From: an uncultured Oscillospiraceae bacterium
Lineage (GTDB): Bacteria; Bacillota; Clostridia; Oscillospirales; Oscillospiraceae
Direction: 5' to 3'
Assembly: GCA_947627285.1 (NCBI GenBank)
Contig: CANQVL010000021.1
Coordinates: forward strand, 1-42,314
DNA length: 42,314 bases
The translations under genes and the position numbers were made by a program. The notes under the pieces were generated by a model, which saw only the letters and a list, made by a program, of their open reading frames with translations, ran no database searches and was not told the DNA's origin. Positions 3,094 through 41,030 of this stretch are shown piece after piece; within the stretch, counting starts at the first letter, position 1, and every line of letters begins with the position of its first letter.

Positions 3094-3096
<3 letters not shown>

Positions 3097-3382
3097 TCGT
3101 AAACTAAAAAGGGCTGCGCCCTTTTTAGTTTACGATTAAGGGGGACGTGCGGGAAAAATCCGTGAATTTTGCGAAATTCACGGATTTTTCCCTGCTGTCG
3201 CGCTGCGCGCGTGCTCGTCGTCGCGGAAGCCGCTTAACCTCGCGTCCTCGCGGGGCGAGGACGCTCAGGCGCAGGCTTCGCTCCTCCTCTCCCCACGCAA
3301 TCACGATTGCGTGGGGACCCCATGAGGCGGCACACTTGCGCGACAAAAGGTGATTTTTCCGACGTACATGCCGTCGGAAAAA
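3094..3382 (+). repeat. Composite four-hairpin gene-end element, copy 1 (long form, after lepA)
   Basis: Hairpin H1 (3094-3114 / 3118-3138) is a perfect 21-bp palindrome that starts exactly at the lepA TAA codon. The linker GGGGGACGTGCGGG follows. H2 (3154-3169 / 3174-3189) is a perfect 16-bp stem with a TGCG tetraloop. H3 pairs TGTCGCGC (3196-3203) with GCGCGACA (3338-3345) and here carries about 130 extra bases at its tip, including sub-hairpins around 3239-3262 and 3294-3319. H4 is a perfect 11-bp stem (3354-3364 / 3372-3382) with loop TACATGC. The tail to about 3440 (AATATTTA then GAGCTTTTTGGCAGCC) is shared in part with copies 2 and 5. No plausible gene lies here. Confidence 0.85.
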
Positions 3383-3458
3383 TATTTAATTTAGAGCTTT
3401 TTGGCAGCCCGAAGCGCCATCTTGGGGGCTTTTTAGGAAAAAACGGAGGACATTGTGT

Positions 3459-5729: not shown

Positions 5730-5788
5730 GAATCGGCTTAGTTATTTGGCGATCCCCAGACAGGCTGTCAAAAGCCCCAAATCCAATA

Positions 5789-5954
5789 TTTTTCCGGCGG
5801 CATGTACGTCGGAAAAATTACCTTTTGTCGCGCAAGTGTGTCGCCTCCGGCGACGCGCGCCGCGCGACAAAAGGAAAAAAGCCGTGAATTCCGCAGAATT
5901 CACGGCTTTTTTCTGAACGTTCCCCACTCAAAAAAGGGCGCAGCCCTTTTTTGA
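5789..5954 (-). repeat. Composite four-hairpin gene-end element, copy 2 (minus orientation)
   Basis: It reads leftward from the stop codon of the 59-residue membrane protein. H1 is a 12-bp stem (5954..5943 / 5939..5928, loop TGC on the minus strand), followed by the linker GGGGAACGTTCAG. H2 is a perfect 17-bp stem (5912..5896 / 5891..5875) with loop TGCG. H3 is a 13-bp stem (5874..5862 / 5833..5821) with an inner TCGCC/GGCGA hairpin. H4 is at 5817..5807 / 5799..5789. On the plus strand, H2 with its T-run would also terminate transcription coming from the GH2 gene. Confidence 0.85.
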
Positions 5955-5956
5955 AA

Positions 5957-6136
5957 TTATTTCCCTTCGTTTCTCGCTCTTACAGCTAGGCTGGAGCAGA
6001 TCAGCGCGGCGGCTGCGGGGCCCATGACGGCGAAGGAGCTCATCTGGGCGCCGGAGCGGATATAGAAGAAGAGAGCCGCCAGCGTCGCCAGTATGAAAAG
6101 ACCGGTGAGGAGCCAGAAAACAGTGCTGAGCTTCAT
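5957..6136 (-). CDS. Small two-helix membrane protein (59 residues)
   Basis: The protein begins MKLSTVFWLLTG and ends AVRARNEGK. Two hydrophobic segments (about residues 6-25 and 34-53) are separated by a short polar loop (YIRSGAQMSS), with a basic C-terminal tail, so it should be an inner-membrane hairpin. An SD AAGGTGAGG (6150..6142) lies inside the end of glnS, 5 bases before the ATG, and the start is only 7 bases after the glnS stop. It is therefore probably translated from the glnS mRNA. I do not recognise the family. Consistent GC-rich codon use, a good SD and a following gene-end element support it as a real gene. Confidence 0.7.
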   Translation of the reverse strand: MKLSTVFWLLTGLFILATLAALFFYIRSGAQMSSFAVMGPAAAALICSSLAVRARNEGK

Positions 6137-11492: not shown

Positions 11493-11505
11493 AAAAGTAA
11501 AGCCG

Positions 11506-11545
11506 AAAAAAATCCGTGAATTTTACGAAATTCACGGATTTTTTT
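11506..11545. terminator. Bidirectional terminator between acpP and the DUF1622 gene
   Basis: A perfect 18-bp stem (11506-11523 / 11528-11545) with loop TACG has A- and T-runs on both sides, so it can serve both convergent genes. Its stem is almost identical to hairpin H2 of repeat copy 1 at 3154-3189, where the loop is TGCG. It thus looks like a solitary module of the composite element. Confidence 0.9.
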
Positions 11546-11569
11546 CATGCCGGTTTTACGGAGGGCGCC

Positions 11570-23315: not shown

Positions 23316-23484
23316 TTGTCGACAAAGGCCGTTGGCCTTTGCCGGCAAGGGGAACGTGCGGGTAATTTTCTCTGAATTTTGCGAAATTCAGAGAAAATTA
23401 CCCTGCTGTCGCCCTGCGCGCGCCCCGAAGGGGCACACTTGGGCGACAAAAGGGATTTTTTCCGACGTACATGCCGCCGAAAAA
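23316..23484 (+). repeat. Composite four-hairpin gene-end element, copy 3 (after trpB)
   Basis: H1 (23316-23330 / 23334-23348, loop GTT) starts at the first base after the trpB stop, with one wobble and one mismatch. The linker AAGGGGAACGTGCGGG follows. H2 is a perfect 17-bp stem (23363-23379 / 23384-23400) with loop TGCG. H3 pairs TGTCGCCC (23407-23414) with GGGCGACA (23441-23448), a paired change from the GCGC form of the other copies, with an inner GCCCC-GAA-GGGGC hairpin. H4 (23457-23484) lacks one base in its right arm. Confidence 0.85.
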
Positions 23485-23788
23485 TATTTAAAATGGGGTC
23501 TTACTCTTATCTGGGGTTTTAAGCAAGATTGCTTTGGCTTATAGGTGCATTATACCACAAATTTTGAAAATGTCAAGTAAAAATAATTAAAAATGCTTCG
23601 TCATTTTCAACAAATTTTAGTGCTTCTGAGCCGCTGGGCTCTTTATAATGATTCCGCCATTATATGGCGGGGGATTTCCTTTCTCCTCTTTTGGATTCGC
23701 CAAAAGAGAAGAAAGGAACAAAGTGGAGAACCCCGAGGGGAGCGTGACCGGCAGCAGCTGCTGCGGGAAAACGGGCTTTATTTCAATA
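23485..23788. other. Gene-free spacer between two convergent element copies
   Basis: I find no credible gene here. It holds a leftward promoter (23576..23549), a 7-bp hairpin CCGCCAT/ATGGCGG (23654-23670), a 19-bp hairpin with one mismatch (23676-23694 / 23700-23718, loop ATTCG), and a perfect 14-base palindrome GCAGCAGCTGCTGC (23751-23764). The left part is A/T-rich. An 18-base segment at 23623-23640 is an inverted copy (17 of 18) of 23963-23980, which covers the end of rluD. Confidence 0.6.
23549..23576 (-). promoter_or_regulatory. Strong promoter reading back through element copy 3
   Basis: A perfect TTGACA (23576..23571), a 16-base spacer and TATAAT (23554..23549), with an extended -10 (TGG before TATAAT), read leftward. 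No gene lies on the minus strand downstream for at least 1.3 kb. The transcript would start near 23542 and run through the whole of copy 3 toward the 3' end of trpB. Confidence 0.6.
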
Positions 23789-23956
23789 TTTTTCCGGCGG
23801 CATGTACGTCGGAAAAATTACCTTTTGTCGCGCAAGTGTGCCGCCTCCGGCGGCGCGCGCAGCGCGACAGCAGAAAAAATTTCGGAAATGTCCGCAGACA
23901 TTTCCGAAATTTTTTCGCACGTATCCCCTTCAAAAAAGGGCAAAGCCCTTTTTTGA
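23789..23956 (-). repeat. Composite four-hairpin gene-end element, copy 4 (after rluD)
   Basis: Reading leftward from the rluD stop, H1 is a 12-bp stem (23956..23945 / 23941..23930, loop TTT). The linker GGGGATACGTGCG follows. H2 is a perfect 19-bp stem (23915..23897 / 23892..23874) with loop TGCG. H3 pairs at 23869..23862 / 23833..23826, with an inner CCGCC-TCC-GGCGG. H4 (23817..23807 / 23799..23789) is identical to that of copy 2. The H2 stem sequence is unlike those of the other copies yet still pairs perfectly. Confidence 0.85.
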
Positions 23957-40237: not shown

Positions 40238-40959
40238 GCGGTAAAAAAAGGACCGGCGGCGGCTTTCCCTACCCCATGAACCGGGTGGAGCTCATCGTCG
40301 GCTGGATGTATGTTTTTGTCCATATGTTCGCCCTGTCCTATATCCTGGCGGCGCTGAACACCTGGGTCTTCCCCCTGCTGGGCTTCCGTCTGGGTGAGAC
40401 CTGGCTCAATTTGCTTTATTACGCCTTCGGCTTTGTGTTCCTGCTGGGCTTTTTGTTCCACTACCTGCGGGAGACCTTCGCGGATATGTGCTCCAACTTC
40501 GCCGCCACAGTGGTGGCGGTGATACTGGGCTTCGTGGCGTATGTTCTGCTTTCAAACATCGTCGCCTTCGGGCTCCGGTTCTTCCTGGAAAACCTGACGA
40601 ATCCCAACTCCGCCGCCGTCAACGCCACCACAAAGCTCAACCCCAACAAAATGCTTGTCATAGGTGTGCTCCTTGCTCCGGTGGTGGAGGAGACGCTTTT
40701 CCGCGGCGTGGTCTTCGGCTCCCTGCGGCGCAAAAACGCCATCCTCGCCTACGCCGTCTCCACGGTGCTGTTCGCCATATACCACCTGTGGAGCTACCTT
40801 GTCCACGACTTCCAGCCCTCCCTGCTCCTCTACCTCCTCCAGTACCTCCCCGCCGGCCTCGTCCTGGGCTGGGCCTACGACTACTCCAAAACCCTCTGGG
40901 CCCCCGTCTTCCTCCACATGATGATAAACTACGTGGTCATGACGGTACAAATAGGATAG
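40234..40959 (+). CDS. CPBP-family intramembrane metalloprotease
   Basis: The 241-residue polytopic protein (about six helices) belongs to the CAAX prenyl protease-like / Abi family. The active-site motifs are intact: EETLFR (Glu152, Glu153, Arg157), His184 in FAIYHLW, and His228/Asn232 in FLHMMINY. The substrate is unknown; members process membrane proteins or give bacteriocin self-immunity. It starts at GTG overlapping the mutS stop (GTGA), so translation is coupled to mutS. It ends inside the palindrome that begins element copy 5. Confidence 0.9.
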   Translation: MSGKKRTGGGFPYPMNRVELIVGWMYVFVHMFALSYILAALNTWVFPLLGFRLGETWLNLLYYAFGFVFLLGFLFHYLRETFADMCSNFAATVVAVILGFVAYVLLSNIVAFGLRFFLENLTNPNSAAVNATTKLNPNKMLVIGVLLAPVVEETLFRGVVFGSLRRKNAILAYAVSTVLFAIYHLWSYLVHDFQPSLLLYLLQYLPAGLVLGWAYDYSKTLWAPVFLHMMINYVVMTVQIG

Positions 40960-41030
40960 TCCGAAAAGGGCTGCGCCCTTTCCGGACTAAGGGGAATTTG
41001 CGGAAAAATATTTATGAGCTTTTTGACAAG
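40957..41030 (+). repeat. Composite gene-end element, copy 5 (internally deleted)
   Basis: H1 (40957-40971 / 40975-40989, loop TGC, one A-C mismatch) starts exactly at the TAG stop of the CPBP gene. The linker AAGGGGAATTTGCGG follows directly with GGAAAAATATTTATGAGCTT, which corresponds to the right arm of H4 and the tail of copy 1. H2, H3 and the left arm of H4 are missing. The tail TTTTTGACAAGCTG leads into the terminator hairpin at 41031. Confidence 0.75.

Follow-up and report, generated by a model that had tools for sequence, protein, structure and literature searches.

What is the hairpin-rich DNA that begins at the stop codon of lepA in this uncultured Oscillospiraceae bacterium, and what kind of element are the similar pieces behind four other genes? 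The five pieces in the window (the whole stretch of 42,314 nt that was analysed) are one family of small hairpin-rich DNA repeats lying directly behind genes. This composite palindromic repeat family of a single bacterial order is real, and most likely it is mobile DNA that carries its own terminator and renews its hairpin stems with unusual speed. Two readings had been offered in the preliminary description, a structured 3' RNA and a mobile palindromic repeat. It is the mobile repeat that we favour, because copy number varies widely in the genus, one insertion can be polarised, and changes at paired positions avoid G-U; the structured RNA is disfavoured. On the favoured reading, which we regard on balance as somewhat probable, the repeat is interspersed, mobile and non-autonomous, ~170-290 nt of DNA with four hairpins and a tail that lands at gene 3' ends.

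Repeat searching and reading of the sequence bear out the five copies, the order H1-H2-H3-H4 and the orientation with the gene upstream. A core model of H3 and H4 (R2) recovers the four full copies with E-values from 1.2e-19 to 1.8e-11, E-values from the models being rough owing to short calibrations. The features of the window are as follows.

3094..3389, plus strand: full copy A, the long form, behind lepA (LepA by Pfam); R2 match at 3281-3386.
3094-3138, plus strand: H1 of copy A, opening with the lepA stop codon; 21-bp stem with no mismatch.
3212..3328 (ends approximate), plus strand: insert in the H3 tip of copy A, ~104 nt, a separate repeat that is also present in other copies and alone elsewhere.
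3353..3383, plus strand: H4 of copy A, with A-T at the conserved mismatch, which is usually A-C (sequence and covariation).
5785..5956, minus strand: full copy B, behind a 59-aa ORF; R2 score 82.6 bits.
H1 5954-5928, H2 5912-5875, H3 5874-5821, H4 5818-5788, minus strand: hairpins of copy B (sequence and DNA fold).
11501..11546, no strand assigned: solitary H2-like palindrome in a convergent spacer, without H3 or H4 (repeat search and sequence).
23316..23489, plus strand: full copy C, behind a PLP-dependent enzyme gene; H1 subtype TGTCGACAAAGGCC; R2 score 71.2 bits.
23785..23956, minus strand: full copy D, behind a pseudouridine synthase gene; R2 score 85.7 bits.
40957..41030, plus strand: deleted copy E, behind a CPBP/Rce1-like protease gene, in which H1 and the linker run straight into the end of H4 and the tail; R2 match only at E 0.19, found by sequence reading.

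The names first given to the upstream genes hold for LepA, the S4/pseudouridine synthase and the CPBP/Rce1-like protease, all by Pfam; trpB is plausible but unproven, since Pfam shows a PLP-dependent enzyme (PALP), and the 59-aa ORF is without a family. Copy B (5785-5959, minus strand) folds into exactly four hairpins both as DNA (z -9.7) and as RNA (z -8.8), and none of 200 shuffles was as stable. The element extends beyond H4 into a tail that reads ATATTTGATTTTGAG..TTTTTTGACAGTCTG in the best copies. The copy at 3094-3382 is long because of the ~104-nt insert in its H3, and this insert is a repeat of its own, with 12 occurrences in the 440 kb examined of the window's own genome (G000, 98.7% complete; other G numbers are congeners), 10 of them inside an H3. 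Stretches related to the inserted repeat (GCAGGCTTCGCTCCTCCTCTCCCCACGC...) also stand free near gene ends of congeners (L099, L104). The common string CGGAAAAAT suggests that copy E may have arisen by deletion between direct repeats.

The count of five copies is correct for the window but not for the genome, and the family is much larger than five pieces. Searched with a DNA query, G000 gave at least 49 matches, at least 41 of them with E below 1e-20 (40 candidates scored). A covariance model built from 31 G000 copies (R1) gave 145 matches at E <=0.1 (150 candidates scored), with 94 places at or above 81 bits by hand count; many of the weaker R1 matches were paired and, where the DNA was examined, proved to be the halves of the long form with the ~104-nt H3 insert. 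R2 matches number at least 114 in G000, at least 114 in G018, 38 in G025, three in G004 and two in G003. Within the genus, 30 of 34 genomes (own included) have an R1 match, and the subgroups differ: 6 to at least 90 matches in G013-G033, with at least 46 in 18 of these 21 genomes, versus 0-6 weak matches in G001-G012. Across the family, R1 matched 151 of 350 genomes and 64 of 106 genera, the matches outside the genus being weak among those listed; the 15 such loci that were read are relatives with a common H3 frame and H4. From 24 aligned family loci a consensus emerges, GCAGCCCGC...CACACTTGCGGGCTGA and CCGACGTACATGCCGCCGG, along with a further tail, CTCTGCGAGG, that is exact in 12 of the 24 and has at most two changes in 15. 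In a set of 38 genomes partly selected for having matches, R2 matched 33 genomes and 21 of 26 genera, with 2 to at least 114 matches each, and two one-contig genomes had 4 and 6. The distribution is that of one order: at E <=1e-4, R2 matched 58 of 394 genomes (own included) in an evenly drawn sample of the order, in families f1, f3, f142, f146 and f156 and weakly in f5 and f157, and 2 of 398 genomes in a sample of the phylum, namely the window's own and one of its family, the listed part of that sample holding only four genomes from the order's other families. A large group of gut bacteria, few of them cultured, thereby gains an abundant family of gene-end repeats.

Where does the element sit relative to genes? 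Anchored copies comprised 69 in G000 and 36 in the congener G015; only the 93 of these 105 in which a linker was found were kept, and a few of the linkers (G0 30, 40, 43 and 50) are probably wrong. With gene positions from a home-made gene caller, a gene in the same orientation lies upstream of 74 of the 93 copies, 15 do not have one and four have no gene called there. A stop codon lies within 120 nt of the linker in 66 of the 93, mostly at 30-50 or 75-95 nt. Spacers of 40 nt or more were compared in the window and in 20 G000 stretches chosen because they bear copies. Those with the element were convergent in 23 cases, tandem in 22 and divergent in none (n=45), whereas those without it were convergent in 25, tandem in 109 and divergent in 52 (n=186; p 4e-6 for divergent, 3e-7 for convergent); two further G000 copies, beyond these stretches, were called between divergent genes. 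At many loci of other genera a long ORF ends just ahead of the hairpins, the longest ORF having been picked and some calls being weak. The genes involved are not fixed: at the end of lepA a copy is present in 3 of 30 loci (G000, G015 and G018), absent from 26 and unreadable in one, and the lepA copy is common to G000 and G015, with G018 having its own. In other congeners (L092, L111 and L112) different repeats lie downstream of lepA, where the sequence coding for the LepA C-terminus is also present a second time and, apparently, as an inverted piece.

A clear and recent polarised gain is seen where a FecCD permease gene ends: G000 and nine other congeners have the empty site there, and G015 alone carries the element (12 genomes matched, L426 being too short to read and 22 without a match). 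The insertion replaced ~13-24 nt of the coding end and brought a new TGA in the H1 loop, and at this one site no target site duplication was seen. This is the only polarised insertion, which counts against the mobile reading. Clean HUH transposition would not replace target bases, unlike the FecCD insertion. Twenty-two G015 copies have both flanks in the G000 DNA examined, and movement appears slow, since at least 13 of the 22 are present in both genomes. Three are absent from G000 (el18, el26 and el31, a different terminator being in place at el31), el24 is reduced there to H1 alone, and the other five sites fell outside the alignments read; conversely, at el25 a copy present in G000 survives in G015 only as an H4 remnant. 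No transposase linked to the element was found in a Y1_Tnp search of the 34 genus genomes. Y1_Tnp occurs in 18 of the 34, own included, and was not found in the copy-rich G014, G015, G016, G021 and G028; a core lies near 2 of the 30 Y1_Tnp loci examined (genus only), by estimate near chance without a computed control, and none of the 30 has two cores around it. A retroelement or group II intron was rejected, as no reverse transcriptase (PF00078) was found in the 98.7%-complete G000; PF00078 is present in 15 of the 34 genus genomes. An autonomous partner with the same tail was also considered and rejected: 10 of 22 tail matches (in 1.23 Mb) are not behind an element, and no transposon was recognised at the matches themselves. 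Transport by phage was set aside, the one pattern tried, exact H4, having no match in viral_contigs.

The two leading hairpins vary strikingly between copies. H1, analysed in 81 copies (12 of the 93 were dropped, the script's hairpin lying more than 15 nt from the linker), is nearly private, with 77 distinct forms, a median stem of 14 bp and no mismatch in 66. By a simple pattern it is terminator-like read forward in 59 of the 81, on both strands in 58 and on neither in 21, and so part of the earlier idea that the element controls transcript ends survives. Among 89 parsed copies H2 takes 77 distinct forms, and 83 of the copies have one of four central cores. On the plus strand, 30 of 35 hairpins of the AAAA-GGC/GGGC type in the G000 DNA examined adjoin an element linker, as do 25 of 31 in G015. 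An H4 is found within 260 nt of all but three of the H2 cores in 440 kb, which shows the modules to be linked to one another. This linkage and that to gene ends had been named beforehand as the points on which a genome-level test could overturn the description, and both survived on the DNA examined. The adjoining linkers also led us to reject, for most copies, the idea that H1 is the host gene's own terminator with the element merely behind it, and at the polarised site H1 arrived with the element. A stop codon lies inside the H1 3' arm in 19 of 81 copies. We rejected the proposal, attractive at first, that insertion had duplicated the last codons of the gene to form this arm, because the arm replaced the gene end at the polarised site; insertion into the coding end better explains the overlap. 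The element appears to provide these gut bacteria with terminators and, at times, with stop codons and new protein C-termini. At L057, L189 (6386), L199 (5565) and L062, similar terminator hairpins flank a copy on both sides, and the L062 pair differs by paired changes.

At 12 orthologous sites of G000 and G015 the flanks are 92-100% identical (mean 96%), and the stems within them often differ on both arms. H2 is identical at three sites, has one unpaired change at one, one arm replaced at one and both arms changed at six, and is not comparable at one; H1 is changed on both arms at seven of the 12 by reading. Point mutation followed by compensation seems an unlikely source of such double-arm changes at ~96% identity. 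The one-arm replacement, in the lepA copy of G015, fits inter-copy recombination with a crossover in the common H2 core, judged from its sequence. Stems swapped on both arms inside flanks ~96% identical make a case for asking how palindromes hold both arms matched.

Do H3 and H4 pair as DNA or as RNA? Covariation is strong: in 78 sequences there are 350 double-changed cells versus 102 in shuffles, and the score is 0.504 versus 0.153 in shuffles and at most 0.091 in slid controls. Together with the orientation of most copies with the upstream gene, the forward terminator-like H1 and the position behind a stop codon kept at many loci of other genera, this is what an RNA would show whose H1-H4 fold in the 3'-UTR of the upstream gene's mRNA to control termination, stability or protein binding. 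The chemistry of the pairs argues otherwise. Standard pairs in H3/H4 are Watson-Crick in 1696 and G-U in 8 of 1704 (0.5%), whereas a TPP riboswitch control from the same group of genomes (30 loci, two below the family cut-off) has 546 Watson-Crick and 35 G-U of 581 (6.0%; Fisher p 1e-14), and one-sided and double changes stand at 4:351 versus 19:108; the Fisher p values overstate significance, as the rows are related sequences. The alignment (A5) was fitted to the model, and an unfitted alignment gave 1 G-U of 897 in H4. Counting against DNA pairing, H2 has more G-U than H3/H4 (20 versus 8 A-C in 85 copies); H1 has 6 G-U and 8 A-C. An H1 that terminates would, moreover, stop the transcript ahead of H3/H4, and presence is not gene-specific, as at lepA, so that a sense RNA is in our judgement unlikely. 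Could the RNA come from the minus strand instead, as an antisense sRNA or the 3' end of a convergent gene? There the conserved A-C mismatch of H4 (59 of 78 sequences) becomes G-U, and elsewhere A-C outnumbers G-U, 25 to 8. However, 10 of those 25 other-strand G-U come from one doubtful pair, perhaps misaligned in the genus, their 1.5% of 1705 (conserved pair excluded) is still below the TPP control (p 6e-8), and most copies share the direction of a gene on the other strand; a minus-strand RNA is very improbable. G-U scarcity is a simple test that may tell DNA hairpins from RNA structures and could be used on candidate RNAs called by covariation alone. The H4 loop is TACATGC, CACATGT or TACACGC in 67 of 78 sequences; its first and last bases (A5 columns 193-200) co-vary as T..C or C..T (TACATGC/CACATGT), which is no Watson-Crick pair.

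If the element is mobile DNA, a mechanism can be sketched by analogy with the hairpins of REP or IS200/IS605. H3 and H4, with their conserved sequence, fixed mismatch and loop, would fold as single-stranded DNA and be recognised in that form by an enzyme that reads hairpins and acts in trans. H1 would act as a bidirectional intrinsic terminator that sometimes supplies a stop codon, and insertions behind genes would be tolerated for these reasons. The variety of H1 and H2 stems probably stems from inter-copy recombination and arm-to-arm template switching. A dedicated enzyme may be dispensable altogether, the palindrome-rich DNA having spread and been homogenised by template switching, hairpin-mediated recombination and gene conversion, which would account for the one-arm mosaic H2 at G015 lepA, the deletion derivatives, the wholesale module swaps at orthologous sites and the insertion with loss of target bases. 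Yet arm correction should erase the fixed A-C mismatch and the loop, and both are kept across many genera; conserved H3/H4 sequences and spread within one order likewise suggest a recogniser, and we think spread without an enzyme improbable, if a shade less so than a sense RNA. The most far-reaching version of the mobile-repeat reading, a new order-specific class of single-stranded-DNA mobile repeat with a hairpin-reading enzyme in trans and H1/H2 stems actively rewritten to give each copy a private complementary stem, is put forward tentatively, as an idea with a modest chance of being right.

How does this repeat compare with known systems? It resembles REP/BIME/REPIN with their RAYT (TnpA-REP) in being a high-copy extragenic imperfect palindrome forming composite arrays, and REP/REPIN in its conserved stem irregularity and loop; one report describes an E. 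coli REP with a conserved AA-GC stem mismatch needed for activity with the transposase (PMC8266576), and another states that GTAG REP ends often provide a stop codon (PMC3733652). Unlike REP/REPIN, the consensus (A1, A4 and A5) has, by eye, no GTAG/GTGG (or CGTC) head, there are four different hairpins, and no RAYT-type pair of inverted cores surrounds the Y1_Tnp loci examined (genus only). RAYTs that satisfy the criteria of one study are reported only from gammaproteobacteria (PMC2817692). The pneumococcal BOX and SPRITE are described as modular hairpin repeats as well; SPRITE resembles a terminator and is over-represented behind genes, with an enrichment in convergent spacers (PMC3049150). 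BOX is set apart by its plan, boxA-boxB(n)-boxC, unlike the fixed H1-H2-H3-H4 with private H1/H2 stems, and both differ in host order. Like MITEs, the element is short, non-coding, highly folded and interspersed; unlike them it shows no duplicated target at the single site that could be polarised. An inverted relation between H1 and tail is weak, the H1 5' arm and tail being inverted in two subtypes (TGTCAAAAAA/TTTTTTGACAG and TGTCGACAAA/TTTGTCGACAG) and the relation absent from many copies. Integron attC sites also lie behind stop codons and fold as single strands, keeping their structure while their sequence varies, and the element is alike in this; unlike attC, its consensus has no GTTRRRY/RYYYAAC core, by eye. 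Its working is of REP or SPRITE type, and as far as tested it falls outside REP and MITE membership.

A literature search, by titles and abstract openings, found no described family of such a plan in Oscillospirales. PMC8040213 mentions a supplement with 250 palindromic candidates, so overlap with an unannotated candidate is possible. Searched against Rfam 15, the window yielded nothing at gathering scores. In 20 related loci the two above-cut-off matches were a tRNA and an S10 leader, both outside the element; below cut-off, the best match to fall on an element was Leu_leader, which reached 36.2 of 50 bits on the L130 copy, and His_leader fell on the L126 copy. A separate palindrome at L148:17375-17450, CAGACTGTAGACAAACACCGCCCC...GGGGCGGTGTTTGTCTACAGTC, has outer ends in common with the element tail.
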